In this document: positions 30,561 to 60,818 of the stretch, piece by piece | Position numbering within the stretch: the first letter of the stretch is position 1 | Layout of the letters: every line of letters starts with the position of its first letter | Origin: a virus | Virus record (IMG/VR): IMGVR_UViG_3300012931_000759 | Location: 124,001 to 188,000 of that record | DNA length: 64,000 bases | Reading direction: 5' to 3' (one strand) | Notes under the pieces: generated by a model | What the model was told of the DNA's origin: nothing | The model's database searches: none | The model's input: only the letters and a program-made list of their open reading frames with translations | Made by a program: the position numbers and the translations under genes

Positions 30561-30570
30561 GGGAAGCGGA

Positions 30571-30651: not shown

Positions 30652-30690
30652 CGGAGCCGGTCATTTCCATGGGAGGACGATGTTCGAGCC

Positions 30691-40194: not shown

Positions 40195-43100
40195 ATGGTT
40201 GACCAGAGCAGGCGGGCAACGGGGCGGACACCAGGACCGAAGGTCCTACGAACATCTCCCAAGCTAGCCAATGTGTTGTCGCCAATTCGGCGCGGAGCGC
40301 TACAGGACGAGGTTGAGAATGGCATAGTCAGGGAGGGCGCACAGTACGGCGGTAGTATGCTGCGTCGAGGAATTGCCGAACCTATGCCTGCGGATCTCGA
40401 CAAAGGTCTTGCTCGCGGAGTGTGGATGGAGGGGGGTCGGCCAACCAGCGGGAAGAAAGCTGCAGAGGGCAGCCAGGCCCTGATCGCGCACAGCCCATCC
40501 TTCAGAAAACAGGCCGCCGTGGGCGTGATGAATGGCGGTGTCGGCAGTACGGCCGGCGCGCCGGTGGAGCGCCTGGCGCCCGAGGTGTATTCGCCATTGT
40601 TCGTGATGGCGAACCTAAACCTGCCGCGTGATCGCATCACGGTGAATGCGTGGTGTTTTCTTCCAGGAACAATGGTGTGGATGGCCGACGGGACACGTAA
40701 GCCTATCGAGGAAATCTGTGTCGGAGACATGGTCCTGTCTGGCGAGGGTTTGCCGCGCCGAGTCACAACCGTGTTTCGGCGACATGTGGACGAGGAGATT
40801 GTTGGTCTCCGTGTCAAAAACTCGCAGGAAACTGTGTGGTGTACTACAAATCACGGCTTCAATGCCGTCAAGGCTGATGCTGTCCGCTGCCACGATAAAA
40901 CGACGTTTGTAAAATGTAAGCCGGACGGGGATGGATGTTTTTGTTCCCGTTGCGGGCGTAAAGATGACCCATATGTGTTCGGGAAAGTGGAGTCCGGACA
41001 ACTTGGAGAAAGAGACATTCTCTATATGCCGGTGCCCAAACTAGAACCGGTTTCGAATGATCCATTGTTGAGCAATCCCGAAGCCATAGAACTTCTTGGC
41101 TATTATGCCGCCGAAGGCTTCGTCGCACACAATAGGGTGACTTTCTCGCTGGGCAGTCATGAGAAGCAGTTGGCTGTTAGGATTGAGGAATTGGTCGGCA
41201 AACTGTTTGCTGAAGGTCAAATCCATACGCGATCAGACAGGTCGACGGAAATCTATGTGGATTGTTCCAATGCCAAATTGGCTGCTTTTGTTTTGCGGCA
41301 CTGCGGACAAGGCTCCCTGACAAAACGCCTGTCGTTCGAATTGATGTCGGTTGAGCCCGGATTGCTGCTGCGGTTCCTGGTTGCCTGGCTGGACGGGGAC
41401 GGTGGACAGGAAAAGTATAATTCGGGCATTTTTGTTGGCAACACTTCCTCCGAGAACCTAGCCTGGCAAATGCGAATGTTGTGTTTGCGCTGCGGCCTGG
41501 TGGCACATGTGTTCCGGGCCCATAGCCAGAAAACTATGGTTTCACCAACCAACGGGGAAACATATCCCGCTGCTCCTCGCTACTATGTTAAGATTCGTGG
41601 CAAATCAGCACTAAAACTGGCGGAATGTTTTTCGTCTGAGTTTTATAGGTTTGCCGCCATCGAACGCTCATATGAGCGCGACGGCTGCTGTTTTATCCAC
41701 AAAGACAAAGCGATCCAGTGGATCAACACCGTGAAGAGGTCAGGCTACATAGGGTTCGTCCACAATATCGAGGTTGAAATTGACCACACCTATGTGGTTG
41801 GATATGGTGTAAGTGTTCGAAATTGCAGGAATTTTTTTGATTTGCACCCGCTTGTGCGCAACGCGATCACGATGCATGCGACCTATCCGATCTCCAAGAT
41901 CAGCATCAGGTGCCAGGACAAGAAGGTTCAGCAGTTCTTCGAGGACATGATCGAGGAGATGGACCTGCTCGGGGCGCTCGGGGATATCTCACTGGAGTAT
42001 TGGAAGCTCGGTGAGGCTTTCCCTTACGCGGAGCTTGACGAGAACACGCTGAAGTGGAAGAGGATCGTCGTTCAGAACCCGGACTACATCCACGTCAAGA
42101 AGATGGTGATCGCCAGCGAGCCGGTTATCTCACTGCGTCCGGATGCCGTACTACAGCGGCTCGTCATGAGCAACAACCCAGCCGACGTCCAGCTGCGCAA
42201 GCAGATCCCGCAGCACATTGTGTACCACGTGCGCCGCGGGGAGAATATTCCCTTGGACAATTTTAACGTCAGCCACCTAAAGATGTTGTCAAGCCCGTAC
42301 GATGTGCGCGGCACCAGCGTCATTGTGGCAGCCTTCAAAGACCTGATGCTTTATGACAAAATTAGGGAATGTTTCTCAATAGATAGCGAAATCATGACCG
42401 AAAGGGGCTTCAAAACTTATGACGAGATCAAGGAGGATGACAGGCTTGCCACTTTCAACCCGGCCACTGGGATAATGGAGTTCCAACCATATACAGCTCG
42501 CATCAAAAGGCGACATGACGGGGATATGTGCCATTTTCATGGCAAGAAGGTGGATGTTCTAGTAACGCCCAACCATCGCATGTGGCTCGCTCAAAGTAGA
42601 TCGCATGGGGGCGGATATCACGATTTCGGCATTATCGAGGCCCAGGATGTTAAGAAGGGCTATTTCTACAAGTTGCGATGCGTTGCCGACTGGGTGGGCA
42701 AGGAACTGAAGACAATTTCGGTTCTCGGGCACGAAATGCCAGCCGAAACCTATATGAGAATCCTTGGGCACCTAGTAGCCGAAGGATGTATCCACTACAA
42801 GAATATCAACAACTATAAGTACAAAGTTGGCATAAGCCAAAACCTTGACCAGAATGAATTGATTTTCGGTCATATTTGCCAATCTATGGTTGATCTTGCT
42901 CGGTTTTGTGGGAAACATCTTGGAACATATGACCATAGGAATACCAAGGGGTTTTCGGTCAACAAGCCATCCGAGATGAGGAATTGGACAATTTCCAGCA
43001 AGGAACTCGCTGCCCATTTTGCCGCCGAGATTGGTACAAACAGTCACGACAAGCATCTGCCGCGCTGGGTGTTCGACTTGTCCCCGCGCCTGTTGCGTAT

Positions 43101-44451
43101 CCTGCTTGATGCCGCCACGGAGGGCGATGGGACGGTCAAGTCCAGTAAATACGGTACGGAATCTGTTGGTATCCGCTACACCACGGTATCCAAGCAACTG
43201 GCGGACGACATCCAAGAGATCGCCTTCAGGTGCGGCTATGCGCCCATCATGCGACGCGACCAGAATGGTCAAGGCAAGTGGTTCTGGGCGGTTGACTGGT
43301 CGAACACGTCTTATGGACATTTTCCCACGGTTTACGGCAATCGCAAAGCCAAGAGGAACGGTGGTGGTGCGACCTTCGAAAGGATTCCGTACAACGGCGA
43401 TGTGTTCTGTTTCGAAGTGCCAAACGGTCTGCTGGTGGTTCGGCGCAATGGGCATATCTCGATCCAGGGCAATTGTAAATTCGCGCAGGCCGACGACCTC
43501 ATCAACCCGATTACGTTGGTGAAGATCGGCGGCACGGGCGAGGGCGAGTTCCACCCGGACGACGCACAACTCGAGGCGTGGCGCAACGTTATCGAGGAGG
43601 CTCAGTACGACAAGAACTTCAAGATTGTTACTCACGCGGGCGTAGTGATCGAGCGCGTGGGATCCTCCGGAGCTGTTCTCGACATCAGCCAGGACATGGA
43701 TCTCATCATCAAGAACATCATGTGGGGTCTCATGGTACCGCACGCCGTGATCGACACTGAGAGCGCCGTGTATGCTTCGGCCTCCATTGGTCTAGAAGTA
43801 CTGCGGCAGCGATACTTCAACTTCCGCAACATGATAGCCAAGTGGTTGACGAACAAGATTTTCTCGCCCATCAGCGATCTCCAGGGATTCTATAGGGCGG
43901 AAGCTGGGTACAAGAAGCTAATCGTTCCCGAGGTCGAGTGGAACCACATGAACCTGTATGACCTACAGGATTACATCAGCAATGTCTCTAGCCTGGTGAC
44001 GGCAAAGCAGGTGTCTCTACAGACGCTGTACAGGAGCCTCGGACTCAATTACGAGGAGGAACGTCAGAAAATGCGCAAGGAGGCGATCAACGACGCTGTA
44101 CGCCAACGCGAGGAACAGGCGCTGTCCAGCATGTCCCTCCTGGAGCTTAGGTCTCTTGACCCCGAACGCGAGATCATGGAGTCTACGCAGGCGGCGCAGC
44201 CGATGGGAGGGCCCTCCATGGGCGCACCTGGTGCGCCGGGATCCGATATGGGCGCTCCGCCGATGGGTGGAGGGGCTCCCCCGATGGGCGGTGGAGGCGG
44301 CGGTCTTCCGGGAGGATTGCCCGAACTAGCCCCGCCGCCCGGTGAAGCAATGGCAGGGCCTGGTGGTGCCGGGGCACCACCTCCTGGGGGAGCAACCCCT
44401 CCGCTCGGACCGGGTGGGCCGGGGGCTCCCCCGGCAGGGCCAGGGAAGTAG
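40195..44451 (+). CDS. Portal protein precursor with two inteins
   Basis: 1418-aa precursor. Removing the two inteins leaves about 660 aa in three exteins (153, 182 and 325 aa). The joined exteins contain a helix-rich core with PISKISIRCQDKKVQQFFED, an SVIVAAFKDLMLYDKIR stem-like segment and a C-terminal Gly/Pro/Met tail (GAPGAPGSDMGAPPMGG-type). Position after the terminase, size and the ED-I/ILE pattern of the helical core fit a dodecameric portal. The gene ends with a collagen-like tail. Assignment to portal is by size, gene order and helical core; no catalytic motif is expected. Confidence 0.8.
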   Translation: MVDQSRRATGRTPGPKVLRTSPKLANVLSPIRRGALQDEVENGIVREGAQYGGSMLRRGIAEPMPADLDKGLARGVWMEGGRPTSGKKAAEGSQALIAHSPSFRKQAAVGVMNGGVGSTAGAPVERLAPEVYSPLFVMANLNLPRDRITVNAWCFLPGTMVWMADGTRKPIEEICVGDMVLSGEGLPRRVTTVFRRHVDEEIVGLRVKNSQETVWCTTNHGFNAVKADAVRCHDKTTFVKCKPDGDGCFCSRCGRKDDPYVFGKVESGQLGERDILYMPVPKLEPVSNDPLLSNPEAIELLGYYAAEGFVAHNRVTFSLGSHEKQLAVRIEELVGKLFAEGQIHTRSDRSTEIYVDCSNAKLAAFVLRHCGQGSLTKRLSFELMSVEPGLLLRFLVAWLDGDGGQEKYNSGIFVGNTSSENLAWQMRMLCLRCGLVAHVFRAHSQKTMVSPTNGETYPAAPRYYVKIRGKSALKLAECFSSEFYRFAAIERSYERDGCCFIHKDKAIQWINTVKRSGYIGFVHNIEVEIDHTYVVGYGVSVRNCRNFFDLHPLVRNAITMHATYPISKISIRCQDKKVQQFFEDMIEEMDLLGALGDISLEYWKLGEAFPYAELDENTLKWKRIVVQNPDYIHVKKMVIASEPVISLRPDAVLQRLVMSNNPADVQLRKQIPQHIVYHVRRGENIPLDNFNVSHLKMLSSPYDVRGTSVIVAAFKDLMLYDKIRECFSIDSEIMTERGFKTYDEIKEDDRLATFNPATGIMEFQPYTARIKRRHDGDMCHFHGKKVDVLVTPNHRMWLAQSRSHGGGYHDFGIIEAQDVKKGYFYKLRCVADWVGKELKTISVLGHEMPAETYMRILGHLVAEGCIHYKNINNYKYKVGISQNLDQNELIFGHICQSMVDLARFCGKHLGTYDHRNTKGFSVNKPSEMRNWTISSKELAAHFAAEIGTNSHDKHLPRWVFDLSPRLLRILLDAATEGDGTVKSSKYGTESVGIRYTTVSKQLADDIQEIAFRCGYAPIMRRDQNGQGKWFWAVDWSNTSYGHFPTVYGNRKAKRNGGGATFERIPYNGDVFCFEVPNGLLVVRRNGHISIQGNCKFAQADDLINPITLVKIGGTGEGEFHPDDAQLEAWRNVIEEAQYDKNFKIVTHAGVVIERVGSSGAVLDISQDMDLIIKNIMWGLMVPHAVIDTESAVYASASIGLEVLRQRYFNFRNMIAKWLTNKIFSPISDLQGFYRAEAGYKKLIVPEVEWNHMNLYDLQDYISNVSSLVTAKQVSLQTLYRSLGLNYEEERQKMRKEAINDAVRQREEQALSSMSLLELRSLDPEREIMESTQAAQPMGGPSMGAPGAPGSDMGAPPMGGGAPPMGGGGGGLPGGLPELAPPPGEAMAGPGGAGAPPPGGATPPLGPGGPGAPPAGPGK
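40654..41823 (+). mobile_element. Portal intein 1 with LAGLIDADG endonuclease
   Basis: 390 aa in frame. Classic first block C-F-L-P-G-T-M-V-W-M-A-D-G, B block T-T-N-H, LAGLIDADG helices in LLGYYAAEGF and LVAWLDGDGG, a zinc-type group (C-x5-C-x-C-x2-C) inside, and a terminal V-S-V-R-N followed by +1 Cys. Its start follows NAW of the portal. AT-richer than the flanking portal sequence. Confidence 0.92.
42370..43473 (+). mobile_element. Portal intein 2 with LAGLIDADG endonuclease
   Basis: 368 aa in frame. Begins C-F-S-I-D-S-E-I-M, B block V-T-P-N-H-R-M, two LAGLIDADG helices (ILGHLVAEGCI and LLDAATEGDGT), and ends S-I-Q-G-N before a +1 Cys in CKFAQADD. It differs in sequence from intein 1, so the two are independent insertions. 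Both splice junctions keep a cysteine in the mature portal. Confidence 0.92.
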
Positions 44452-44454
44452 CCC

Positions 44455-44907
44455 ATGGATCGTTCGGAACTCTTGTTTAGGGACGGCTGCCGCAAATGGC
44501 ATGCCTACTTCGAGCGGTGCGCGAACGATGGTCGGATGGCCGAGATTCCGCATCTTATCAGGAAAATCGCGCAATACCTGGATGCCTGGAAGGGTGGCCT
44601 CGTGGCCGCTCATCGCAAGACGCAGGAGGCTGAAAAGTACCTCCTGGAGTGCCGTCAGAAGGAGGCCTCGATCCAGTCTCGGCTGAGGCTGCTGGGGCAG
44701 CTCGCCGCCACCATGGATAGCAGATTTGCCGAGAGGAGTCAGCAGGAGCGTTTTGTCAGGAGGGAGCGCGCGCTAGCGGCGGCCGAAACCTGGAGGCTGG
44801 TGGAGGGAAAGAAGCGGGAGGAATCCGAGCGGGAAAGGCTCGAGAGGGCTGAGAGGCACATGGCCGCACAAGAGCAGGAAGGCAGATCCGGAGGCGACAA
44901 TGAATAG
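44455..44907 (+). CDS. Coiled-coil protein (150 aa)
   Basis: 150 aa, nearly all charged helix rich in Arg/Glu/Ala, with a continuous coiled coil from about residue 50 to the end. It follows the portal immediately, where scaffold, head-completion or internal proteins are usually encoded. The basic/acidic pattern suits a scaffold-like or DNA-associated role. No family recognised. It overlaps the next gene by 8 bases. Confidence 0.5.
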   Translation: MDRSELLFRDGCRKWHAYFERCANDGRMAEIPHLIRKIAQYLDAWKGGLVAAHRKTQEAEKYLLECRQKEASIQSRLRLLGQLAATMDSRFAERSQQERFVRRERALAAAETWRLVEGKKREESERERLERAERHMAAQEQEGRSGGDNE

Positions 44908-46081
44908 GGAAATAACATTTGCCAAGATCGCCGCTATGGCGCAGCTGCTGGACGATCACGGGCTACACGACGACGCCACAGTTATGGATGAAGTGCTGGA
45001 GGCGGCCGCGTTTCCCGGCATCCTCAAGGAGGCAGGATTGTGGAAGAACATCTTGTCCAGGCTGAGCGGCTGGGCGCGTAAGGTCCTTTTTAGTGAGTAT
45101 CGCGAGATGTACGATATGGCTGAGGAGGCCCAGAACGCACTCGATGAGCGCATCGAGGCACTCCAGGATGCCAACAAGGAACTCAAGGCCATGCTGTCGC
45201 GTCACGAGCTTCCCGAATGGCGCAAGAATATTGCTACCATCATCGCTGGTGTCGGCGAGAATGCGGATGAGGTCATGTCCGACTATGATTCGCTCCACGC
45301 GAAGATGACGGCGCGTCTGCTGAAGCTCGCCCCGGCGGCCAAAAAGAGGGAAAAGAAGCCAACAACGCCCGCGCTGCTACCGAAAGAGGAGGGGGAAAAG
45401 GAGGAGCCCAAGTCCCCAGAGAAGGCCATAGAAGAGACCTTAGTTCCCGAAAAACCGGCCGAGCCAACCAGCATCCCGGAGGAGCCGATTCCCCTGACCG
45501 AGGTCAAAAAGAAGCCGACGCCGGAAGCGCCCCCGGAGCCTGCGCCAGCCCCGAAGCCAACTCTCGCTCCGGTAGCTCCGCTACCCAACTGGAAAAAAGA
45601 GAGGTTCGGCACTAGCGGCAAACATGGCTGGGAATGGGAATGGGAAGTGTCACCTGACAACAACCAGCTGCGCCTTCTGAAGAGCCAGCTGGCTGCTGCC
45701 TCCAGCGGCAAGGGGAAGGTCCTACATAGGCATGGGGATAAGTACCGCCCGACCGGTGGCACGTCCAGCATTAAGCTGCGTAAACTCATGGGCGGCACGT
45801 TTTGGGAGATGGACGACGACCCCTCTGATCCAAACATGGTGATCCTGACGCGTACGGAAGAGGTTGTACCTTTTCCGCTGTCGATGCGCCAGGAGCCGGT
45901 CGAACAGGCCAAGAAGCTTAAGGAGCTCGGCAAGTCTTCCAAAGAGCGGATGAACCGACTTGTGACCATTGCTGTCGGCAGATCGGCCGGGGAAGAGATG
46001 AGCGAGGAGGAGAAGCTCGACGTGGCCGCCGAGGCTCTGCTCGAGGGTTTCGAATCCGAGGAGACCGAGGAGGAAATTTAG
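44900..46081 (+). CDS. Helical-motif protein with Pro/Glu/Lys linker (393 aa)
   Basis: 393 aa. The shared pattern is at 10-35 (IAAMAQLLDDHGLHDDAT, then VMDEVLEA). A helical region follows, then a long disordered Pro/Glu/Lys linker (about 150-240), a compact domain beginning KKERFGTSGKHGWEWEWEVS (residues about 244-330) and a helical acidic tail. The Trp-rich compact domain is unlike the rest. It directly precedes the 1298-aa fusion. Function unknown. Confidence 0.5.
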   Translation: MNREITFAKIAAMAQLLDDHGLHDDATVMDEVLEAAAFPGILKEAGLWKNILSRLSGWARKVLFSEYREMYDMAEEAQNALDERIEALQDANKELKAMLSRHELPEWRKNIATIIAGVGENADEVMSDYDSLHAKMTARLLKLAPAAKKREKKPTTPALLPKEEGEKEEPKSPEKAIEETLVPEKPAEPTSIPEEPIPLTEVKKKPTPEAPPEPAPAPKPTLAPVAPLPNWKKERFGTSGKHGWEWEWEVSPDNNQLRLLKSQLAAASSGKGKVLHRHGDKYRPTGGTSSIKLRKLMGGTFWEMDDDPSDPNMVILTRTEEVVPFPLSMRQEPVEQAKKLKELGKSSKERMNRLVTIAVGRSAGEEMSEEEKLDVAAEALLEGFESEETEEEI

Positions 46082-46083
46082 TT

Positions 46084-49000
46084 ATGGCGTGGCCATCCCT
46101 TTCGCGACGCGCTTCCCCCGGCATATCCCCGGTGGCCCTGATGCGCCTGACGGAGATTGATGATCCTGATGAACTACTCAAAAAGTTCAACAGAGATGAT
46201 ATTATAGTAGAACATAAATACGATGGCTGGAAGGCGCAGATCATCAAGGACGGGGAAAAGGTCCGCATCTTCAGCAGGCGCGGCGAGGAGGTCACTGGGA
46301 ACTTCCCGGCGATCGCCAAGGAGATGGTTGGTCTTCCTGACGGTACCCTTGTCGAGGGCGAGCTGGTCTACTGGGACAAGGGCAAACAGGATGTGACGAA
46401 GGTAACGTCCCTTGCCGGAAGCTCGGTCGACAAGGCCTTGGAGAAAGTGAAGGGGCTGCCCGGCAAGATGAAGCTCCATATCTACGACATCCTGTGGCTC
46501 AAGGGCAAAAACGTGGCCGACAGACCCTTCTCCGAGAGGCGCAAGCTGCTTGAGTCGGCTGTGAAGACCTCCGATACGGTCCTCCTGACAAAGCAGTACC
46601 CTTTCGCCAAGTGGCAGAATGCCATGAACACGGCAGTCGGCCAAGGTGGCGAGGGCATCGTACTCAAGCTCAAAGGCACCAAGTACCAGTACAAGCCCAA
46701 GGGCGAGTCCGAGCCAAAACCAAAAGATACGATGTGGAAGTATAAGGGCGGGGCTGGCAAGCACGACTCCGACGACTATGTGGTCTACGGCACGACCAAG
46801 AGCAAGACCGGCAAGCTCATGGCGCAGTTCGGCCAGTACTACAAGGGCAAGCTGTACGCCATCAGCGAGATCGACAACTTCTCGGCCGAGAACGAAGCCG
46901 AGATCGAGAAGCGCCTGAAAAAGGGTCCGTTCGTCATCGAAATTGGTTTCCAGGAGCGCGTGCCGGGCGGGCTGCGGCACCAGAAGTTTCTCAGGTTTCG
47001 GGACGACAAAAAGCCCAAGGATGCCACCATGCACGAATTCCATGCGGAGCATATCGGCGAGTTCGAACCAGCCAAGATGGAGCGGAAAGCAATGTTTGCG
47101 CTGGCGGGTACTCCCGATCTCGCCAAACTTGTTACGACGCTGGAACGGGCGGTTGGAAAAACAGACCCCATGAAGACGGGACCGACAAGGATCGGCGACG
47201 TGGGTGGTGTGGATGGCGACAAACTGTTCCAGCTCGTATCCAAACTTGAATCGAACGGTAGGACAGATGTTGTAGGAGACGCTGGAACGTCCTTTGGACC
47301 GACACAAATTCATGGGCCCTACCTCCTGGCCAGGCTTGCTGGAATGTCCGGCGCGCAGGCGGCCACCGGCTTGTCGCCCGATGAGATGCGCAAACTCTCC
47401 TCTTCCTGGCTGGACACCCTGAGGCAGCTTCGCGGCGCGCGCGTTTGGAAAGAGGTTCCAGTAGATCAGGACGAGGCGCGGAGATTACCTAGGATCAAGC
47501 GCCTGGAGAAGACCTTTATCCGCAGGCCGGATATGGTCATCGAGCAGAGGGACGGCCGGTATGTCGGTCGCATCTTGGATCTGGACGCCCTGCGAAGCCT
47601 GGGCTTCGATGTCGACTCGCAGATCTTCAGGAACGCCTTGCGCAGGATCTACGCGGAGTACATCACCGACAATGTCGCACTTAGCGGCCTGGCCCAGGCC
47701 CATCTGGGCTCCTTGGCCCCCGAGGCCTTCTACAAGTTCAAAAGGCAGTTCAACCCCGCCGGTATCCGGAAGAACAAGCCCCTAGCATCCCTGCTGGAGA
47801 GGGCCTCAACTAGCGACCTAACCAGCAGGATCGCTGCCGTGGTCCGGATGGTCGAGAAATCCGGGTACGACACGACTGCGCCGGGCGCGTTCAGCATCCC
47901 GCAGCTGGTCTTCATCGCCAACGGGAGCGGTATAGGGCGGGTCCAGCAGTTCCTCATGGACAGGAAGCCCTTCGCGCCGGGGAACTTACACTACCTACAG
48001 AGCCCCAGGTTTAAAGCCGCCATGAGCGCCTTTGTGAAAAACGATCCCGATCTTCGTGGAATGGCCACCCAGCTGCTCGCCGGGCTTCCTTCCGGCGACG
48101 GCATAGCTGGCTTTAAGGGGGAGGTTGCCGCTCGCATCGCGGCGCTGCTCGGGGCGGACAGCGAAGAGATCAGCCGGTCCGATGCAGTGAGGATGTTAAC
48201 GTTCGCCGACGGCCATCCAGATCGAGGGCGTGGCCGCTATCCGCGCTGGAATCCGGCCCTCCAGGCCCGCGAGATCATGAACTTGGTCGACCGCTGGCTG
48301 AACTATGAGAACATCCGGCCAATTGACCTGAAGGCGGTGGGCGTGACGCTCATTCGCGTCGACAGGGAGCAGGATCCGCCAAAGCTCGTCCTCTGGATCA
48401 TGGGGGACATTCAGGCGCTACAACGCCTGCTGCCGAGAAAGATGTGGGGCATGCCCGTTGTTCTACACTCCGACATCCCGAGGGCGACAACGGAGCTACC
48501 GGCCGTCACGGAGTTCGAGGAGGAACCGACGCTCGTTGACGTGGAGTCAAGAATGCCGACTAAGCTGTTCCAGGAGTACAGTGATCTCCTGGTGCGGGTA
48601 CGCGCCGAACTAAAGAGGACGCACAGGCACGTTCCCGAGGATCAGCTAAGACGTACGGTCTTTCTACACATTGCCGAGGAGCTGGGATACGATCTCGGGG
48701 AGCTGGAGAGAACCCTGGGTGAGCACGCCTGGCTCAGATTCTCCCATTGGCAGCCTCCTTTGTCCAAGCTGGCGATGGGCAATCGTGGCGTGCTCGCGTT
48801 CCCTGGACAGTACGCTGAGGATATCAAATCCGGCAAGATGGAACGGACGATCAGGCCTGGTGACATGCCGGTCGAGCCGGAGGAAGTGGTAGACGCTATC
48901 ACCTATTCGGGAGGACCTATTTGCCGGATCAAGATTCTGCTTAAGGAGATCATGAGCCTGCCGCGTCTCGCCAAGGCGTTCGGCAAGCATGTGGCCAGGT

Positions 49001-49980
49001 CCCTCGAGCACCGTTTCGGGCCGGACAGGCGCTTTATGGTCATCCGTTTCACTCGCTTCGGGGAGCAGGATGCCGACGACGGTGAACTTGACGAGAAAAA
49101 GCGCGGCGAGATCCTGATCGACAAGGATGGGATCGAACTCACGCGCGGGCAGATCTACGACCACTACGCCAAACCAGCGATCCGCAAACAGATCATGTCC
49201 CGCATCAAAGGCAAGCCTGTGCTAGTCTATCTTGGTGTGGGCAAGAACGAGAAGATCTTGAAGCGCAACCATGACAGTAAACCCATCGTCATTTCCAGCG
49301 ATGACCCAAAAGGGGATGGAGACAGTGGAAATTACTGGTACTGGGTCAAACGTCGGCTATTGGCTATTCATCAAGTGTTCGGTACGAAAACAGGTATTGG
49401 TTTTGTCGACCTGGATCTACATGGCGGATACCCACTCGATAAGAGCAAGGAGTACGCTAGGAAGGCAGTTGCGGCCATCAAGGAAAAGTATGGCGTTCAG
49501 CCGAAGGTCTACCAGAGTGGCGGCACTGGGCTCCATGTGGAGTTTGAGCTTGGCAAGGAGGTTGGTATCGACGGCCTGCGCAAGGAGTTGCGTGAGCTGC
49601 TCGACAAACTGAACGAGGATTTCGAGGGCGCGACGACCGGCCTTGTGAAGGGAAAAGGTATGCGGACGGATGTGAGTACACTTCACAACAAGGGCAGCCT
49701 ACGTGTGCCTGGTTCATTGGGTGAAACTTGGGGCAAGATGAAAAAGTCTTTGTCCCAATCGACCGATGACGATTATCAGAATGGGCAATTTGGTGGCAAA
49801 TATTCGGACACTGGCCCATTTGGCGATGGTGGTTCTATTGTGCCTATGCCCTATCAGTCTTCGGCTCCCGAACAGGTCGGAGCTGCGACGGCCTCTGAGA
49901 GAATCAAGTTATTCCGAATTGTTGCGCAGCAGTACGATGATGAAGTGAAGCCTGGAACAATAGCTCCTGGAAAATTTTGA
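46084..49980 (+). CDS. 1298-aa fusion: ATP-dependent DNA ligase, lysozyme-like, ASCH-like and LigD-type polymerase domains
   Basis: Tag L-S-R-R-A at 6-10. Residues 12-325: DNA ligase with motif I EHKYDGWK (K45 nucleophile), motif III LHIYDILWL, motif IV GEGIVLK and motif V WKYKGG. Residues 378-445: lysozyme/transglycosylase-like, E389 in KLESNGRTD and GTSFGPTQI. A long unassigned middle (450-885). Tag P-P-L-S-K-L-A at 891-897, followed by an ASCH-like domain (FPGQYAEDIKSGKMERTIRPGD, 901-1000, by key residues) and a LigD-type primase-polymerase (1015-1225; D1109, D1111, SGGTGLH at 1145-1151, R1207). It seals and fills DNA ends; the lysozyme part may act on the cell wall. Fusion of these in one frame is very unusual. 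Confidence 0.85.
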   Translation: MAWPSLSRRASPGISPVALMRLTEIDDPDELLKKFNRDDIIVEHKYDGWKAQIIKDGEKVRIFSRRGEEVTGNFPAIAKEMVGLPDGTLVEGELVYWDKGKQDVTKVTSLAGSSVDKALEKVKGLPGKMKLHIYDILWLKGKNVADRPFSERRKLLESAVKTSDTVLLTKQYPFAKWQNAMNTAVGQGGEGIVLKLKGTKYQYKPKGESEPKPKDTMWKYKGGAGKHDSDDYVVYGTTKSKTGKLMAQFGQYYKGKLYAISEIDNFSAENEAEIEKRLKKGPFVIEIGFQERVPGGLRHQKFLRFRDDKKPKDATMHEFHAEHIGEFEPAKMERKAMFALAGTPDLAKLVTTLERAVGKTDPMKTGPTRIGDVGGVDGDKLFQLVSKLESNGRTDVVGDAGTSFGPTQIHGPYLLARLAGMSGAQAATGLSPDEMRKLSSSWLDTLRQLRGARVWKEVPVDQDEARRLPRIKRLEKTFIRRPDMVIEQRDGRYVGRILDLDALRSLGFDVDSQIFRNALRRIYAEYITDNVALSGLAQAHLGSLAPEAFYKFKRQFNPAGIRKNKPLASLLERASTSDLTSRIAAVVRMVEKSGYDTTAPGAFSIPQLVFIANGSGIGRVQQFLMDRKPFAPGNLHYLQSPRFKAAMSAFVKNDPDLRGMATQLLAGLPSGDGIAGFKGEVAARIAALLGADSEEISRSDAVRMLTFADGHPDRGRGRYPRWNPALQAREIMNLVDRWLNYENIRPIDLKAVGVTLIRVDREQDPPKLVLWIMGDIQALQRLLPRKMWGMPVVLHSDIPRATTELPAVTEFEEEPTLVDVESRMPTKLFQEYSDLLVRVRAELKRTHRHVPEDQLRRTVFLHIAEELGYDLGELERTLGEHAWLRFSHWQPPLSKLAMGNRGVLAFPGQYAEDIKSGKMERTIRPGDMPVEPEEVVDAITYSGGPICRIKILLKEIMSLPRLAKAFGKHVARSLEHRFGPDRRFMVIRFTRFGEQDADDGELDEKKRGEILIDKDGIELTRGQIYDHYAKPAIRKQIMSRIKGKPVLVYLGVGKNEKILKRNHDSKPIVISSDDPKGDGDSGNYWYWVKRRLLAIHQVFGTKTGIGFVDLDLHGGYPLDKSKEYARKAVAAIKEKYGVQPKVYQSGGTGLHVEFELGKEVGIDGLRKELRELLDKLNEDFEGATTGLVKGKGMRTDVSTLHNKGSLRVPGSLGETWGKMKKSLSQSTDDDYQNGQFGGKYSDTGPFGDGGSIVPMPYQSSAPEQVGAATASERIKLFRIVAQQYDDEVKPGTIAPGKF

Positions 49981-50034
49981 ATATCAGTTTGTGTAAATAT
50001 TTGAGATCGCTCAACATTATGGAGTGTGGTGCTG

Positions 50035-53000
50035 ATGGTCAGCCTTCGTAGACGAATCCTCATGCTGGTGGCCCCGAAAGGGTTCTTTGAACCCGAATAT
50101 TCGGCATCACGTGCCGTGTTTGCCGATAGGGGCATCGATGTGGCCGTGGCCACGGCCGGTAAGTCGGCTGTGAGTGCGCAGGGCACAACCATCAGGGTCG
50201 ACCTTGACGTAGCGGACGCTGACGCAAAGGACTTCGACGCACTGTTTGTGGTCGGCGGCAAAGGTATGATCGAGTTTTCGGACGACAAGGCCGCTAAGCG
50301 CATCCTGCGCAAGTTTGTGCGCGTCGGCAAGCCGGTAGCCATGATCTGTCACGCCCCGCTCTTGGCGGCAAAGGCGAAGGTTGCTGCCGGTCGGCAGATG
50401 ACCGGATGGCCAGAGATCCGTCCCGATATGGTGGCCTCCGGAGCCAAGTGGACCGGCATGCCGGTGGAGCGGGACGGCGATCTGTTTACAGCCGTGGGAC
50501 CGGAGGATGCCGAATCCCTCGCCGACATCCTGGTCCGGCGGATGGATGGTGCCCCGACGCTCTCCGAGGCAATGTTAGATGACAACGCCGCCATGCGCAA
50601 ATTGGCGCGCCTGTGGCGCGCCGCAGCAAGGCTCGACAAGCCGATGACGGACGAGGAGGCCGAGCGCTGGTTGACGGAGTTTGAGCGCAGGGACGAGGGC
50701 GAGGAGGAGCCACCTTCTGAACCTACCACTCCCAAGCCGGTTCTAGCACCCGCGCCGAAATCGGTCCCGGCGCTCGCCGCCAAACCCAAACCTGAACCAG
50801 AGTTTACGCCCGACCCAGAGAGGCGCGATCAGATCACACATAAGCCGAAAAACGAATGGAATATTGTGGTGGAGCTTCGGCCACCCCGCACAGACGGCGG
50901 CTGGCCGGAACTTCCCGAGACCCCTCCAGTCGGATTCCCGTTCCCAGCTGAGGCGCTGAAGGACAGCCCTTCCATCAGGGCGCTATTCCAGAAGCCTGAG
51001 ACCTGGCGCGCACTCAAAGAGATTGCCGCCAATCCCAACAAGAGTGGTACAATACAGTCATACCTCGTGCCGACGCTAGTGCTCGTTATCGGCAAGGCCT
51101 GGTGGGAGATCAACAAGCGTCGCAAGCAGCTCGGCAACGCGCCGTTCGGCCTTTTCTCGTCCGACGAGTACAAGACCATACAGGACGCCAATGTCCCCAT
51201 GGAGGAGACGCAGATTGGACGGGCCTTCATTGCGCTGATCAACTGGCAGGTTACCAAGATACTCCAGTTCTACCTCGCCACCGGCAAGATCGAGAATGCT
51301 CGGCTGGATGGCTATATCTATGACGCCCTGAACAAGCACATGGTGAACGATGCGGGCAAGCGGCACGGATTCGAACCCAAGCGCCAGCCCGCCTGTGCCT
51401 ACTGTCGCAGCAAGCGCGTCATAGAGACGACGCCTCCGTTCCTTTCGCAGATCGGGACGCACACTGTCCAGGAAAGGAATCTGACGCGAAGCCGTCCCCT
51501 GTTCAAGTGCCCAACCTGCGAGGATCTGATCGAGACCAAGGAACAGGAGCTTCGCCTGAAGGAACAGGGTGTCCGCAACGCGGAAGAGAGTTTGCGCGAT
51601 ATAGCCAAGAATGTCCGGAACACCAAGGACAATCTGACCAAGGATCCGGACAGTGCCGAGCTGAAGCAGCGCCTGGTGAACTATGAGGCTATGTTGGCCA
51701 GCTACCGCCCACAGGTAGAGGAACTTGCCAAGGAGCGCAACACCCTGAAGGGCGAGATCCAGAACAGGCGCAATATGATAGGCGTGCCTTATTCGCATCT
51801 CTCTTGTATTAACGAGGCCTGCCCAGGCGCCGCTATACCCCTCACGTTCGTGGACTGGGACAACTCTTTCTGGAAGACGCCTGCTGGAGATGTGGCCAGG
51901 CGTGACCTAGCCAGCTTCTACCACATCGAGAAGAGTCCCGAAGGTCAGAAGGCTGAGGATGCGCCACAGGAAAGCGTTCAGCCTACATCTGAGCGCGCCG
52001 GGAAAAAACCGCCCCCGTGGATGTGGCACATTCCGTTCCGCTGCCCGTTTGATGGGCTTGTTTTCACGCCGCATGAGGCATTCGGGAAGGGGCGTGTCGG
52101 CGAGGACGGGACAAGACTTGGTGGCTTGTTTGTTAACCCGCCTCGCGCCACTAGGTGGTGGAAGCCGATGTCTCTCGAGCAGCAGCGGATGCCCGATGAC
52201 GAGGGCCAGAAGCAGCGCATCGAGGAGATCCGGTCGTTGACCGGTATCGAAACCACCACGGACTCGCCGGATTTCCTGCGCTCTCAGGAGATGAAACAGG
52301 AGAACGCCTGGCTGGCGGACCGCCTGCGCGAGGATATCCTCCGGCAGAGGGAAAATTTTATGAAAGAGCGCGGAACGCTTGAGGGCCATCGCGAGGTCAA
52401 GCTCCGCAGGACTATGTTCGACGCTTTGCTTGAATGGGCATATCTACATCCCATACATCTTGTGGCATTCTATAGCGCGCGTTCCCAGGCTACACAGAAG
52501 CCGCAGACGCACGTGCCAGTCGGCACCGAGCCAGTTGTGGACGGAAAGAGTGGGGAAGTCAAGGAGCATCTCGACGAAAAGAACATTAAGATGTCCCCAA
52601 AGCAGGCCGAGCGGATCATCTCCGCAATCATACAGGTGTGGTTCGAGAAGATGCTGGCCGAGAAGGATGGGCTGACCATCCTCAAAGGTAGGCCGGGCAA
52701 AGGGCGTTCAGGCAAGCTCACGGGACAGGGCAACTACCTGGCCATCAAGGAAGTCGACGGCGTAGAGCCGGACGGCTTTTTTGTCACGACGGTACAGCGA
52801 GCGTTGGACGGGCAGCTCGAAGCGCTTTGTAATCTCCGCACAACCAGCCCTAAGACTCGCGGGGCCGGATACTACCCCGCTCCATGGATGGCGCTTGTAC
52901 AGGGTATCTGGGACTACGACGGCCCAGCCGAGCGAATGGGTATCTCTATGCCCCTCGTGGAGGGGCAGAAGCTGGTCGCGGGCAAGAGAAGCCATCTCCA

Positions 53001-55344
53001 CGAAATGGAGACCCACAACAGCCATGGCATCCGATTCGACCCCGAAACGACGCTGAAGGAGGGGGATCGCATTGTTGTGAAGGCCCTGCTGATGCCGCGT
53101 AACTCCTCCTGGCCTCCCAATAAGTTCGTTAGCCATATCCGGCAAGGTCTGAAGTGGGACATCGGCGATGCCAAGGTCTACTACTCGGCGCTGCGCCGCC
53201 GCCAGAAACCTAAACCCTCGGACGAGCAGGTTATGGCCTTCTGGACGAAAAAGATGCAAGAAGCCAACATGACCGAGAAACTTGAGAAGTTTTATGAGAC
53301 GGTATACGACAGGCTGCGCCACAAGGAGGACCTCTCGGCTTTCGAGATAAGGCTGTTGGAGCAGTTTGAGCAAGCCAAGGAACAGGAGGCGTCCGACACC
53401 ATGGTTTCCGAAGCCAAGGATCCCCTCGCAAAATACCAGGGCAAGCGCGAATTCGACAAGACCACGGAGCCGAAAGGTAAGGAGTCGGAGGGTGGGAACA
53501 GGTACCGCTTTGTCATCCAACTACACCATGCCAAGAAAGCGGGTGACCATTACGATTTACGCCTAGAGAACGACGAGGGCGCATTGTCGTCGTGGAGTAT
53601 CCCGAAGCACCGGCTACCCAAGGGCAAGGAGAAGTTGCTCGCTGTCAGGACCGAAGACCATCCGGTCGAATACCTGAAGTTCAAGGGCGAAATCCCGGCG
53701 GGCGAGTATGGGGTCGGCACGATGGAGATCCACGACTCGGGAACCTACGAGGAGATCGAGGCCGGCAAGACCAAGATCGTCTTCTGCTTGAAGGGAAAGA
53801 AGGAGAAGGGGGCCTACAAGTTATTCCGGGCAGGCGAGGGAAACAAATGGATGGTGATGGAACATACAGAAAATAAACAGGAAAAGAAAGAGGCAGCCTG
53901 TGGCTCGAGTGTAACTCTATTCTCCAAACGAATTGGCAGTGTTCCGTTGTCAAAGATGGCGGCGCACAGTGGTGCGATGTTGGCTCTCATGGCTCCGTCG
54001 GCCATTGCCAGGAAGATGCGCAAGGCCAAGATGGTAGAGGACGAAGATCTGTCTGATACCCTTCACATGACTCTGTTGTACCTCGGGAAAGCTGCTGACC
54101 TCAGCAAAGAGACGCTGGAAGCAGTCCGGAAGGCGGCAGAGAAGGTGTGCGAGCGGCACGACCCGCTAAAGATGGGTGTTTCGGGTGCCGGGACATTCAC
54201 TCCGGAAGAAGATGGCACTCCGGTATACGTGGTACCTAATGCGAAGGGATTGAGCGCTCTACAGGCCGACCTGGAGAATGTTATCGGCAGCATCGTCGAC
54301 CTGCCCTCTGAGCACGGCTGGGTTCCGCATATGACTGTATGCTACTGCCGCGACGGGAAACCGGAACTCCCAGACCTGACGGAGAAACTGGAGTGGACCG
54401 CTGATAAGGTGCGTCTACAGGCTGGTGACGAGAAGATCGCGGACATTCCCATTGGCCGCAGGAAAAAGGGTGGAAGCGAGCTTCCGCTGTCCAGGCGGGC
54501 TGCGCTGGAGCGGTTGCCGATAGCCGCTGATCCTGTAATGTGGACGGATGAACAGTTGGTGGAAGCCGTCCGTCGACCGGAACTGTTCGGAAACGACAAA
54601 GATCGGTATCGGGCAGCAGTCGAACAGTTGGCCAAACGCGGTCTGGTGAAAAAGGTGGAGCCAACAGACATCGGCGAATGGCGTGAGCGCGGTTGGTGGC
54701 TACTAATGTGGGCGGGGATCCCACTCGCTTTCTACAACAACGATGCTGCTGCCAGTATGGCTAAACGGCTGCTCGCAGAGGATTTCGCCAAGGACGGCAC
54801 GCAGCCTATTGCTGCGCGTAAGTTTGATCCGATCCATTCCCGTCTGCGTTGGCAACTCGACGAGGTCATGGATCTGGGCCCGGCCGAGGACTACGAGGAG
54901 GCTGATCACCGGCGCGGTAGGGCAGGAACGGCCGTGGATGAACTGGTTACGCATCCTATGTACGCAAAACGGCGCAGGGAATTCGCCGAGAAGGCATTGA
55001 ACATCGCCAAGGCTCCCGCTGGTTTCAGACCGTTCAAAGAGTCGGTTCCCTCAGGTGCGCGACCAACCGAAACTAACGCTGACGCAGCTGAGGCTCGCAT
55101 CACGGACATGCGGTTCGGTAACACCCTGCCGGAGTTTACTGGACCGCTGGTGGATTCCCAGGAGGCTGCGAAGGACGCCGGTGACGAACTGGTCGAGGAC
55201 ACCGCCAAGAGACTTGCCAAGCGGCTGGAGGCCGAGCGGGCCGGTCTAGATCCTGAAAAACTGGCGGACGACGATGCGCTGGAACTAGCCCTGATCGAGC
55301 CGGACGAGGTTCCGCTCTCGAAGCGGACGGAAACATACCAATAA
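50035..55344 (+). CDS. 1769-aa fusion: DJ-1/PfpI, paralogue of the 10.4-kb protein, LigD 3'-phosphoesterase, 2H phosphoesterase
   Basis: Start ATG 50035 with GGAG 10 bases upstream. Residues 1-172: DJ-1/PfpI fold with nucleophile C105 in MICHAPLL. A Pro-rich linker follows. Residues 275-1060: paralogue of the 673-aa protein with two zinc pairs. Residues 1132-1278: LigD-type 3'-phosphoesterase (QLHHAKKAGDHYDLRLE; IPAGEYGVGTMEIHDSG). Tags L-F-S-K-R and P-L-S-K-M at 1295-1308. Residues 1311-1475: 2H phosphoesterase with H-M-T at 1344-1346 and 1432-1434. Tag P-L-S-R-R at 1484-1488, a helical tail domain, and tag P-L-S-K-R at 1760-1764 near the C-terminus. A multi-enzyme polypeptide, likely processed. 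Confidence 0.85.
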   Translation: MVSLRRRILMLVAPKGFFEPEYSASRAVFADRGIDVAVATAGKSAVSAQGTTIRVDLDVADADAKDFDALFVVGGKGMIEFSDDKAAKRILRKFVRVGKPVAMICHAPLLAAKAKVAAGRQMTGWPEIRPDMVASGAKWTGMPVERDGDLFTAVGPEDAESLADILVRRMDGAPTLSEAMLDDNAAMRKLARLWRAAARLDKPMTDEEAERWLTEFERRDEGEEEPPSEPTTPKPVLAPAPKSVPALAAKPKPEPEFTPDPERRDQITHKPKNEWNIVVELRPPRTDGGWPELPETPPVGFPFPAEALKDSPSIRALFQKPETWRALKEIAANPNKSGTIQSYLVPTLVLVIGKAWWEINKRRKQLGNAPFGLFSSDEYKTIQDANVPMEETQIGRAFIALINWQVTKILQFYLATGKIENARLDGYIYDALNKHMVNDAGKRHGFEPKRQPACAYCRSKRVIETTPPFLSQIGTHTVQERNLTRSRPLFKCPTCEDLIETKEQELRLKEQGVRNAEESLRDIAKNVRNTKDNLTKDPDSAELKQRLVNYEAMLASYRPQVEELAKERNTLKGEIQNRRNMIGVPYSHLSCINEACPGAAIPLTFVDWDNSFWKTPAGDVARRDLASFYHIEKSPEGQKAEDAPQESVQPTSERAGKKPPPWMWHIPFRCPFDGLVFTPHEAFGKGRVGEDGTRLGGLFVNPPRATRWWKPMSLEQQRMPDDEGQKQRIEEIRSLTGIETTTDSPDFLRSQEMKQENAWLADRLREDILRQRENFMKERGTLEGHREVKLRRTMFDALLEWAYLHPIHLVAFYSARSQATQKPQTHVPVGTEPVVDGKSGEVKEHLDEKNIKMSPKQAERIISAIIQVWFEKMLAEKDGLTILKGRPGKGRSGKLTGQGNYLAIKEVDGVEPDGFFVTTVQRALDGQLEALCNLRTTSPKTRGAGYYPAPWMALVQGIWDYDGPAERMGISMPLVEGQKLVAGKRSHLHEMETHNSHGIRFDPETTLKEGDRIVVKALLMPRNSSWPPNKFVSHIRQGLKWDIGDAKVYYSALRRRQKPKPSDEQVMAFWTKKMQEANMTEKLEKFYETVYDRLRHKEDLSAFEIRLLEQFEQAKEQEASDTMVSEAKDPLAKYQGKREFDKTTEPKGKESEGGNRYRFVIQLHHAKKAGDHYDLRLENDEGALSSWSIPKHRLPKGKEKLLAVRTEDHPVEYLKFKGEIPAGEYGVGTMEIHDSGTYEEIEAGKTKIVFCLKGKKEKGAYKLFRAGEGNKWMVMEHTENKQEKKEAACGSSVTLFSKRIGSVPLSKMAAHSGAMLALMAPSAIARKMRKAKMVEDEDLSDTLHMTLLYLGKAADLSKETLEAVRKAAEKVCERHDPLKMGVSGAGTFTPEEDGTPVYVVPNAKGLSALQADLENVIGSIVDLPSEHGWVPHMTVCYCRDGKPELPDLTEKLEWTADKVRLQAGDEKIADIPIGRRKKGGSELPLSRRAALERLPIAADPVMWTDEQLVEAVRRPELFGNDKDRYRAAVEQLAKRGLVKKVEPTDIGEWRERGWWLLMWAGIPLAFYNNDAAASMAKRLLAEDFAKDGTQPIAARKFDPIHSRLRWQLDEVMDLGPAEDYEEADHRRGRAGTAVDELVTHPMYAKRRREFAEKALNIAKAPAGFRPFKESVPSGARPTETNADAAEARITDMRFGNTLPEFTGPLVDSQEAAKDAGDELVEDTAKRLAKRLEAERAGLDPEKLADDDALELALIEPDEVPLSKRTETYQ

Positions 55345-57581: not shown

Positions 57582-58153
57582 GCGGACGACTTTTGAGGCT
57601 GGCCAAGGCCATCGCCGTGATCGATGTCAAGGAGCCGGAGGGCGGCTGCTTTCCCGGTGCCGAGAAGGTTTTAGAAAAGCAGAAAGGTCCCGGCGGCATG
57701 TGGCGCGAGGACGAGTTGCTGGACTATGGGCGCGCCAAAGGCACCGTGCCGGACAAGAAGCCGAAAGATCTCGACCTGAGGGCCGAGGACCTCGCCAACC
57801 GGCTCGAGGAGGCTGTGGCTGCCATTGGCGACTGCGTGGCAATCCTGAAGGAATTGGGAATGGACGAGGGGAAGGCTGGGGACAAAATCCTCTCCATCGT
57901 CCGGGACGAGACGCTCGGACCGGAGAGGATTCCGGGCGGGTTCTCGGAGGGCAAACCGGACTCCGAGTTCGACCCCGACCAGCTGGAGAAGGGCATCAAG
58001 GTCGAATTGGAGCATACGGGCAACATCGGGGTCGCAAAAGAGGTCTCCAAAGACCATCTTTGCGAAAACAAGCGTTATTACGATTACTTAGAAGAAATGG
58101 AAGAAAAAGCCGAAAAGAAGGGCGATTCGTGTAGGTTGGCGGATCAAACATGA
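57578..58153 (+). CDS. DUF5661-like protein (191 aa)
   Basis: 191 aa. Residues 133-176 (FDPDQLEKGIKVELEHTGN through KRYYDYLEEME) match a small domain found in many phage proteins and named DUF5661: G-x-K-V-E-x-E-H-T, A-x-E-V-x-x-D-H-L and YYxxL. Its AT-rich last 130 bases differ in composition from its GC-rich start, as expected if the next homing gene brought flanking DNA with it. Function of the domain is unknown. Confidence 0.6.
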   Translation: MSGRLLRLAKAIAVIDVKEPEGGCFPGAEKVLEKQKGPGGMWREDELLDYGRAKGTVPDKKPKDLDLRAEDLANRLEEAVAAIGDCVAILKELGMDEGKAGDKILSIVRDETLGPERIPGGFSEGKPDSEFDPDQLEKGIKVELEHTGNIGVAKEVSKDHLCENKRYYDYLEEMEEKAEKKGDSCRLADQT

Positions 58154-59016
58154 ATCTGTGTCAATGTGGCTGCGGCGCCCTCGTTGAGAAGCGTTACAAA
58201 AAAGGTCATGGGCGGCGTGGCAAAACAAATACTCCAGAACACAATCAGAAAATAGGTCTGGCCAATTCTGGTAGGAAACACACGCGAGTTGGTACAACCA
58301 GCGAATACAAAGCTGTTCCTGATTCTTTCCTCCAAAACCAACAGGTTGGTCGTCGTCTGTCCGAAGAAACAAAGGCGAAAATGAGTCGCATCGCCAAAGA
58401 AAAGGGTTTTGGAAAATGGATGGTCGGCAGAAAACGATCTGAGGAAAGTATCAAAAAAGGAGCAGACAAGGTAAAAGGACACGAAGTGTCCTCCGATACG
58501 CGCAAAAAGATCTCCGATGCCAACGGTGGTCAGAACAACGGTATGTTTGGGAAACGTCACACAGAGGAAGCGAAAACGAAAATTGCTGAAGCCGCTGCTG
58601 CTATGTGGGAAAACCCGGAAATCAGAGCACAACTGCTTGAGGCGTTCAATGCTCCAGAACATATCGAAATGCTGCGCCAGAGAAGGGCCAATATGGTGTT
58701 GCCCGTCAAGGACACAACCATTGAGGTGATCGTGCGCGGATTCTTGGACGCTTTGGGTGTTCTGTATCAACAGCACAAGATGATCAAGGACATAGAGCAC
58801 AGATATCAATGCGATTTTTATGTAGAGGCTCATGGGCTGGTCATAGAATGCGATGGCGATTACTGGCATCAGTATCCACATGGCCGCGACATAGACCGCG
58901 CGCGAACCTTTGAGATGGAACAGCAGGGATATAAAGTATTGCGACTGTGGGAGCACTCCATTCGCAAAATGTCCTGCGATGATTTTCGTCTGGTATTAGA
59001 AAAGGTGGTCAGATGA
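58150..59016 (+). CDS. NUMOD-type homing endonuclease with Vsr-like nuclease domain
   Basis: 288 aa. N-terminal CQCGCGALV zinc-type motif, NUMOD-type repeats (LSEETKAKMSRIAKEKG, RSEESIKKG, HTEEAKTKIAEAA) and a C-terminal nuclease with V-I-E-C-D-G-D-Y-W-H (E233, D235, D237, H240) followed by GYKVLRLWEHSIR. Its start overlaps the previous stop and its stop overlaps the next start, both by ATGA. AT-richer than neighbours. Confidence 0.88.
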   Translation: MNLCQCGCGALVEKRYKKGHGRRGKTNTPEHNQKIGLANSGRKHTRVGTTSEYKAVPDSFLQNQQVGRRLSEETKAKMSRIAKEKGFGKWMVGRKRSEESIKKGADKVKGHEVSSDTRKKISDANGGQNNGMFGKRHTEEAKTKIAEAAAAMWENPEIRAQLLEAFNAPEHIEMLRQRRANMVLPVKDTTIEVIVRGFLDALGVLYQQHKMIKDIEHRYQCDFYVEAHGLVIECDGDYWHQYPHGRDIDRARTFEMEQQGYKVLRLWEHSIRKMSCDDFRLVLEKVVR

Positions 59017-60137
59017 ACCTGCGCCAGAGGTTATTGGTCCTGCGCCCCGCCATGGCGGCGGCCGCCCAGAAGGTGGTCGACGAGTGGCAGCTGGACGAGG
59101 AGGGGCTTGATCCGGAGCTGGGCGCGGGCGGGATCTGCGACCGCGTGGCCGACGCCATCACCGACACGCTGTACTCCCATCTCGGCGATGTCGAGGTGGC
59201 GCTTGGCGCTCCGGAGGGCGAGGACCACCAGTGGGTTGTTGTGAGTGACGGGAAGGAGGCCTTTGTGGTCGACATCCCGCCAGGCGCGTACGAAACCGGC
59301 GGCGGCTACGCCTGGACAAAGATCGAAGGCGCCCGGATCGAACCAAGTGATGTGTTCGTAGGCCCGATCGACCTAGAACTAGCGCAAGACCTTCTCAAGG
59401 AGGGTGGACGGATGCATAGACTCGTTGTCCTGGCCGAGGCGCTCGAGGCGCTCGGCGAAGCGAACAGTGCCGCGCTCGCGCGCGTGCTGGCGGTCCCCGA
59501 ACTCGTCAGCGAGGCACAGGGCTGGGCTGATCGGTTTTTTAAGGCGAATCCCGAACTACTGGACAGGGCTGAGCAATTCGCTGAGGCCAAGGGTATCTCA
59601 GTCGGGCAATATCTCGGCCATCTTGAGCAGCTTCCGGAGGATATCGGCCGCAAAAAGGTCCATCAGGATCTCGGTTATGTCGGAATGGGCGCGGCGTGGT
59701 CCCCGACCGGTAAACCGACCGCAAAACCGGAGCCTAAGCCGGAGAAGCCGGAGCCGAAACTACAGCCGGAGACCGAACTCCGGTGGCCGTTCCCGCCGCC
59801 GAATGTCCTCCAGGACAGAAAGGCCTTCATTGCCGCCGCCCTCGGATGGGCGATGGGCGAGGGCAGGGACCTCTACGGGCGCATGTACGGTTCGCAGGGG
59901 CTGCGCGACACGGGCAGGAAGGGGGAGGTGGGGGCTGCGCGCGCCTATCTGCGATACCTCATGAAGGATGTGGCGCCGCGCCTGGCCGCCACCCTGCAGG
60001 CCAAATGGAAGGAGGCCTCGACCAAGGGCGACACGGAGGCGCAGCGCACGCTGAGAGCCTGGTGGTCGTCGCTGTCGGACGTGTGGGAGCTGATCCAGGA
60101 TATGGTCGGCAACATCAACGAATATTCTATGGAATAG
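59013..60137 (+). CDS. Cysteine-peptidase-like protein carrying a helical motif copy
   Basis: 374 aa. Residues 35-120 hold C42 in GGICDRVADAITD, H72 in DHQWVVV and D87 in VVDIPP, in the order of a papain/transglutaminase-like Cys-His-Asp triad. GGGYAWTKIEG follows. The shared pattern is at 137-162 (LVVLAEALEALGEANSAA). A Pro-rich linker and a helical C-terminal domain complete it. Peptidase assignment is inferred from residue order only. Coupled to the preceding homing gene by ATGA. Confidence 0.55.
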   Translation: MNLRQRLLVLRPAMAAAAQKVVDEWQLDEEGLDPELGAGGICDRVADAITDTLYSHLGDVEVALGAPEGEDHQWVVVSDGKEAFVVDIPPGAYETGGGYAWTKIEGARIEPSDVFVGPIDLELAQDLLKEGGRMHRLVVLAEALEALGEANSAALARVLAVPELVSEAQGWADRFFKANPELLDRAEQFAEAKGISVGQYLGHLEQLPEDIGRKKVHQDLGYVGMGAAWSPTGKPTAKPEPKPEKPEPKLQPETELRWPFPPPNVLQDRKAFIAAALGWAMGEGRDLYGRMYGSQGLRDTGRKGEVGAARAYLRYLMKDVAPRLAATLQAKWKEASTKGDTEAQRTLRAWWSSLSDVWELIQDMVGNINEYSME

Positions 60138-60140
60138 TTA

Positions 60141-60815: not shown

Positions 60816-60818
60816 GCC

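Follow-up and report, generated by a model that had tools for sequence, protein, structure and literature searches.

Two adjacent giant ORFs in the head locus of an uncultivated jumbo phage carry an ATP-dependent DNA ligase, a predicted LigD-type primase-polymerase (archaeo-eukaryotic primase type, AEP) and a LigD-type 3'-phosphoesterase (PE), together with several other domains. On balance, these polyvalent (injected)-type giant proteins are read as a virion-loaded, Ku-less kit for the repair of DNA ends; the anatomy of the proteins, as described below, is practically certain. The analyzed window of 64,000 bases corresponds to positions 124001–188000 of record G000, which belongs to an uncultivated virus and is 340,392 bases long; end repeats are absent, so that the record may be incomplete. 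A virion locus that combines a LigD-type polymerase and PE with either a ligase or topoisomerase IB appears to be undescribed in the open-access literature searched, and so does the peptide repeated between the domains; polyvalent proteins and LigD domains are each already known.

Domain composition of the giant proteins

Giant ORF 1 (46084–49980, 1298 aa) encodes, in this order, the ligase, a helical domain, an ASCH-like domain and the LigD-type polymerase. Giant ORF 2 (50035–55344) encodes a DJ-1 domain, a region with CxxC pairs, the PE, a 2H domain and a C-terminal extension; its length is 1769 aa from the ATG at 50035 and 1772 aa from the GTG at 50026. Both ORFs, with all their domains, lie on the + strand and share a reading frame. 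Two in-frame TGA codons, at 49978–80 and 50002–04 of the same strand, separate them, which makes the split real in this contig and a simple single-stop readthrough across the break unlikely. The sequence-only reading had recognized the three catalytic domains of LigD in these proteins; all three are present, with conserved active-site residues, and its placement of ligase, polymerase and PE holds as given. Additional to that reading are three domains (DJ-1, 2H and ASCH-like) and, at the domain junctions, a conserved peptide.

The ATP-dependent DNA ligase (NTase and OB parts, residues 10–326, 46111–47061) was identified by Pfam, PDB and motif comparison: Pfam DNA_ligase_A_M matches residues 26–207 (E 1.4e-31), and PDB 2hiv was also matched (E 3e-20). 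The catalytic Lys45 is located within EHKYDGW, and the OB part ends in motif VI (RxDKxPxDAT), represented here by RFRDDKKPKDAT. Motifs I (KxDG), III, IV, V and VI are all present in the 10 sequences/contigs compared. The family ligase HMM gave 116 bits for the Alicyclobacillus phage ligase, 59 for LigB of SPbeta, 58 for a LigB-type (cisplatin-response) bacterial ligase and 31–51 for the ligase domains of LigD, and the ligase scores below the NCBIfam cut-offs for LigD. As judged from HMM scores rather than a tree, the ligase appears nearer to phage and LigB-type ligases and not to belong to the LigD clade. A second, separate ATP ligase is encoded at genome positions 30049–31467; accordingly, the ligase of the giant protein need not be the replicative one.

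The LigD-type primase-polymerase occupies residues 1015–1225 (49126–49758), with D1109, D1111, S1145, H1151, D1196 and R1207 as catalytic residues. Direct sequence evidence for it is weak, the Pfam LigD_Prim-Pol match having E 0.01 in the window, E 9e-4 in the relative L048 and E 1e-3 in L081. The PDB sequence search gave a weak match to archaeal PriS (E 0.04–0.18), and profile and fold comparison were therefore used. Profile–profile alignment with four LigD Pol domains gave E 1.3e-5 and was collinear over 165 columns. In a Foldseek search with an AlphaFold model of low confidence (pLDDT 46.5), the top nine matches, comprising all hits with E<1e-3, were to the Pol domain of Mycobacterium tuberculosis LigD, the best of them with E 5e-5 over 103 residues at 2.0 Å. 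The DxD and SGGxGxH motifs and the motif-III Asp are invariant in every relative reaching this region; the family polymerase HMM had no direct match to LigD. These profile and model comparisons bear out the earlier assignment to the LigD type and point to a polymerase distant from LigD Pol.

The LigD-type PE (residues 1131–1285 of ORF 2, 53416–53880) matches TIGR02777 (E 1.6e-40) and PDB 3p43 (E 6e-30). Against the TIGR02777 cut-off of 144, the PE of the relative L045 passes with 144.9, and that of the window is slightly under with 138.4; the PE HMM scores 103–118 bits with the PE domains of LigD. By its sequence, the enzyme is a close relative of LigD PE. The residues of its center, numbered from the GTG, are Q1165, H1167, H1175, D1177, R1179, H1212 and Y1216. 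His42, His48, Asp50, Arg52, His84 and Tyr88 are given in the LigD review as the essential residues of the phosphoesterase center, and equivalents of all six are present in the window and conserved across the family. In L023 (17951–19258), a 380-aa intein is inserted between the two metal-ligand histidines of the PE. Inteins are usually located in conserved active sites, and the interruption of the active site suggests that the PE of L023 is a maintained enzyme.

The helical domain (47209–48123), with the invariant Glu389 and the SFGxTQ motif, is conserved in relatives. Its AlphaFold model is confident (pLDDT 82), and neither PDB nor BFVD yielded a significant match to it, the hits of RPF/SLT type being weak; this result lends no clear support to a lysozyme-like identity, and the domain possibly represents a new fold. 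The ASCH-like domain (48763–49068) was matched by Pfam ASCH with E 0.025 in a segment search, and a match of the NCBIfam ASCH type (E 2.3e-4) was found at the equivalent position of L045. In ORF 2, the DJ-1/PfpI domain (50050–50553; Pfam E 2.3e-34) keeps its nucleophile cysteine in the window, but the residue is gone in three of seven family members, so that not every domain need be active. It is followed by the conserved region with CxxC pairs, putatively Zn-binding (50926–51945), and, beyond the PE, by the 2H (LigT/2'-5' RNA ligase-like) phosphoesterase (53950–54435; Pfam E 6.6e-16), which was undetected in most giant proteins of the family. Domains of the CCA-adding/poly(A) polymerase type were observed in or near the arrays (L017:17425–19425; L051:5120–13024; window 34059–34829), hinting at tRNA repair.

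Relatives and comparison with LigD

Scans of IMG/VR added 16 contigs that encode the polymerase, the PE or both. The first scan, with ORF 2 as the single query, gave no relatives; these were retrieved with ORF 1 and with alignments as queries. An AEP scan of GTDB contigs gave zero relatives, neither PE nor polymerase had matches with E<=0.01 in a set of 50,697 phage records, and the polymerase had none in plasmids.

In six relatives (L017, L023, L024, L045, L047 and L048), ligase, polymerase and PE are encoded by a single ORF of 1362–3474 aa in the order ligase, helical domain, ASCH-like domain, polymerase, DJ-1, CxxC region and PE, with DJ-1 and the CxxC region missing from some. Accordingly, the division between two proteins reported by the sequence-only reading, although real in the window contig, is not typical and is a peculiarity of that contig. 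In L001, the ORF is broken before the PE. In L071, ligase and polymerase share one ORF, and the PE is fused to topoisomerase IB. In L051 and L081, topoisomerase IB occupies the N-terminus of proteins that also contain polymerase and PE and in which ligase was not detected. Topoisomerase IB is located in the head-locus arrays at L051:5120–13024, L081:2655–8456, L048:19354–20808 and L071:7650–10646. A topoisomerase IB gene was also observed near the portal gene of the 485-kb uncultured phage L084 (LR745208.1).

In LigD, the PE removes 3' phosphates and ribonucleotides, the polymerase fills gaps with a preference for ribonucleotides, and the ligase seals (PMC8656161). As predicted from sequence, the giant proteins share with bacterial LigD the three catalytic activities, with a close PE, a distant polymerase and retained catalytic residues. 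They differ from it in the order Lig–Pol–PE, in the separation of the catalytic parts by further domains and by as much as >1000 aa, in the head-locus position of the gene and in the lack of Ku. The four LigD references are 578–893 aa long, in contrast to the much longer one-ORF relatives and the two ORFs of the window, and no LigD in the LigD review has such domain order and spacing. The proposal of a rearranged LigD, or end-joining toolkit, was thus not upheld: the ligase is not LigD-like in particular, the distances of the domains from LigD differ greatly, and order and spacing are unlike those of LigD. Such different distances, measured by HMM scores rather than a tree, suggest assembly from several sources. 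Capture by a phage of a bacterial LigD, now broken or rearranged and decaying, would account for the presence of the three domain types and for the closeness of the PE to LigD PE (117 bits). However, the catalytic residues are conserved across contigs, and ligase is undetected where topoisomerase IB is present; with the affinity of the ligase to phage and LigB types and the foreign order and spacing, this origin is very improbable and was rejected.

Ku, which the sequence-only reading had not seen in the window, was likewise not detected by HMM in the whole record. The search for PF02735 found no Ku in 12 records, namely the window record and the 11 relatives retrieved before the last five contigs; these records may be incomplete. 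Without Ku, nick or gap repair, or work on RNA, is possible instead of end joining in the fashion of LigD. In mycobacteriophages Omega and Corndog, the phage Ku acts with the LigD of the host. These phages bring Ku and borrow LigD, whereas the phage of the window brings LigD-type enzymes without Ku.

Among PDB chains, the PE of the window matches 3p43 and 3p4h best; these presumably correspond to the PE structures of Methanosarcina and Korarchaeum that the LigD review mentions. Archaeal Lig, Pol and PE are separate cellular proteins. Unlike the enzymes described here, these stand-alone proteins are neither fused nor encoded in a virion locus; the likeness to archaeal NHEJ of the Methanocella type (PMC4797286) lies in the PE.

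Head locus and the proposed virion loading

Upstream of the giant genes, on the + strand, are located genes for the large terminase (38332–40182; Pfam E 5.8e-19), for a 1418-aa portal protein with an intein (Hint, LAGLIDADG; 40195–44451) and for a 393-aa protein (44900–46081), which has counterparts at the same position in L001, L017, L023, L024 and G008. The giant genes are followed by the head maturation protease, encoded by a 1326-aa ORF just past the window (G000:189622–193602; match at 116–217) and homologous to gp19 of phage G, and by the major head protein (G000 203147–204172). This order is conserved in relatives, which confirms the placement downstream of terminase and portal that the sequence-only reading had pointed out. 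Bacillus phage G (Donellivirus gee) has homologous portal, head protease and major capsid proteins, the capsid protein being about 52% identical, but its portal–capsid interval holds genes of ordinary size and no giant genes. Intein-like inserts were also observed in the portal proteins of L001 and L017, and the portal of L024 (673 aa) appears to be intein-free. Several homing endonuclease-like genes (HNH/GIY-YIG type, by eye) are located among the head-locus genes at 58150–61855 of the window, and in L017 and L023 similar genes are found ahead of the giant gene.

Phage polyvalent proteins are very large polypeptides of the virion locus with disparate enzymatic domains, including 2H, for which injection with the DNA and processing into units by built-in metallopeptidases were proposed (Iyer et al. 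2017, PMC5512222). The giant proteins likewise combine several unrelated enzymatic domains in a very large polypeptide encoded among the virion genes of a portal–terminase phage, but a conserved interdomain peptide is found in them, and neither giant ORF of the window contains a recognized peptidase domain. LigD, DNA ligase, DJ-1 and ASCH are not mentioned in PMC5512222, and Primpol appears there only in polyvalent proteins of conjugative elements. Taken together, gene position, the shared peptide and the precedents (PMC5512222, PMC10052503) make loading into the virion probable.

According to the proposed mechanism, the giant proteins would be synthesized late, taken up into the head and ejected along with the DNA. 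In the new cell, the PE would clean 3' ends, the polymerase would fill short gaps, probably with ribonucleotides as in LigD, and continuity would be restored by the ligase or, in some relatives, by topoisomerase IB; the incoming genome would be protected or circularized ahead of any new protein synthesis. A further factor would be required for end bridging, which may be the Ku of the host, the SbcCD-like pair of the phage (an SbcD-like phosphoesterase and an SbcC-like ATPase, window 3869–7191) or annealed overhangs. Repair of DNA ends or gaps has slightly better than an even chance of being the main function, the predicted activities being those of LigD biochemistry (PMC8656161).

Late genes of the head locus can encode non-virion proteins, and the giant proteins could be repair or replication proteins made late and acting on phage DNA in the producing cell before packaging, in RNA-primer removal, gap filling and ligation. 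Ligase, AEP and PE would also be suited to cleaning 3' ends and ribonucleotide patches, and adjacency to the terminase could serve the mending of DNA before packaging. This explanation is unlikely, since the phage encodes another ligase, separate from the giant protein, and a DNA polymerase III, the alpha subunit of which is encoded in the window, since the peptide is common to other small proteins of the head locus, and since DJ-1, 2H and CCA-adding-type domains are ill-suited to packaging repair.

Less likely still is a role as counter-defence cargo, the main target of which would be nucleic acids or signals of the host and not the phage genome: 2H would degrade cyclic or 2'-5' nucleotides, cleaved tRNA would be mended by the CCA-adding domain, 2H and ligase, and damage from nuclease defences would be undone by the DNA enzymes. 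Such a role is consistent with the sharing of arrays or locus by 2H and poly(A)-polymerase/CCA-adding domains, and action on RNA or 2'-5' oligoadenylates was proposed for 2H of injected polyvalent proteins (PMC5512222). However, catalytic conservation is best in the DNA enzymes (polymerase and PE, joined by ligase or topoisomerase IB), and 2H is not found in most of the giant proteins. If the giant proteins are indeed a virion-loaded kit for DNA-end repair, phage genomes are not defenceless before expression of their own genes, since ready-made enzymes healing DNA ends arrive with the genome, and LigD-type enzymes work apart from any phage-encoded Ku.

The boundary peptide

The first 12 contigs contained 49 copies of the consensus F-x-[LI]-S-K-R-A in a slightly relaxed form. 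Where the domains of a protein had been mapped, the copies (29/29) are located outside recognized domains, which make up 54% of the length; the naive P of 2e-10 overstates this evidence because the sequences are related. Copies are often located 5–15 residues away from the edge of a domain, as behind the ligase and the helical domain, in front of ASCH and on both sides of the PE. Seven copies are present in one 1933-aa protein of L081. A DNA repeat or recombination scar was ruled out as their origin: the codons differ between copies, and it is thus the peptide, not the DNA, that is conserved.

The giant proteins of the window contain degenerate copies only, all on the + strand. LSRRA precedes the ligase (46099–46113), LSKLA is located immediately before ASCH (48760–48774), FSKRI and LSKMA belong to the PE–2H interval (53920–53961), a second LSRRA follows 2H (54487–54501), and LSKRT is found at the C-terminus of ORF 2 (55315–55329).

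In three long records, 4/5, 6/6 and 5/6 of the copies are located in the head locus, where they occur in giant proteins and in small neighbors, among them the proteins of 127 aa and 497 aa; the peptide is absent from the portal, protease and capsid proteins of these records. This restriction speaks mildly for a cargo tag rather than a general protease site. The FxLSKRA peptide may be an encapsidation tag and/or a processing site, and in the proposed mechanism it would act as one or the other. Internal proteins of T4, with their capsid-targeting sequence, and ejection proteins of SPN3US become head cargo by means of short N-terminal signals or propeptides, which the prohead protease removes (PMC10052503). 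Those phages have Glu-type cleavage motifs and mostly one N-terminal propeptide, whereas the basic FxLSKRA recurs here between many domains. A literature search for the peptide gave nothing relevant.

A broader generalization is tentative, with somewhat less than an even chance: a lineage of jumbo phages would deliver a Ku-independent kit for DNA-end repair, comprising LigD-type polymerase, PE and either ligase or topoisomerase IB, into the cell with the genome, as strings of enzymes punctuated by F-x-[LI]-S-K-R-A as tag or processing site. If this is true, the peptide is a short, testable signal for head cargo or polyprotein processing, by which capsid-loaded enzymes could be revealed in other phages.

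Three further proteins encoded on the + strand of the window begin with forms of the peptide: a 335-aa protein (30691–31698) starts with MSQPISKRA, the 127-aa head-locus protein (60819–61202) with MATPPLSKRSNSTPLLPISKRA, and the 497-aa protein (61852–63345) with MIPLSKRA. The last contains a zincin-like motif of the HExxH type (by eye) and weak matches to PG-binding and DSP-type phosphatase (HCxxGxDRT) domains; its counterpart in L024 has 669 aa.
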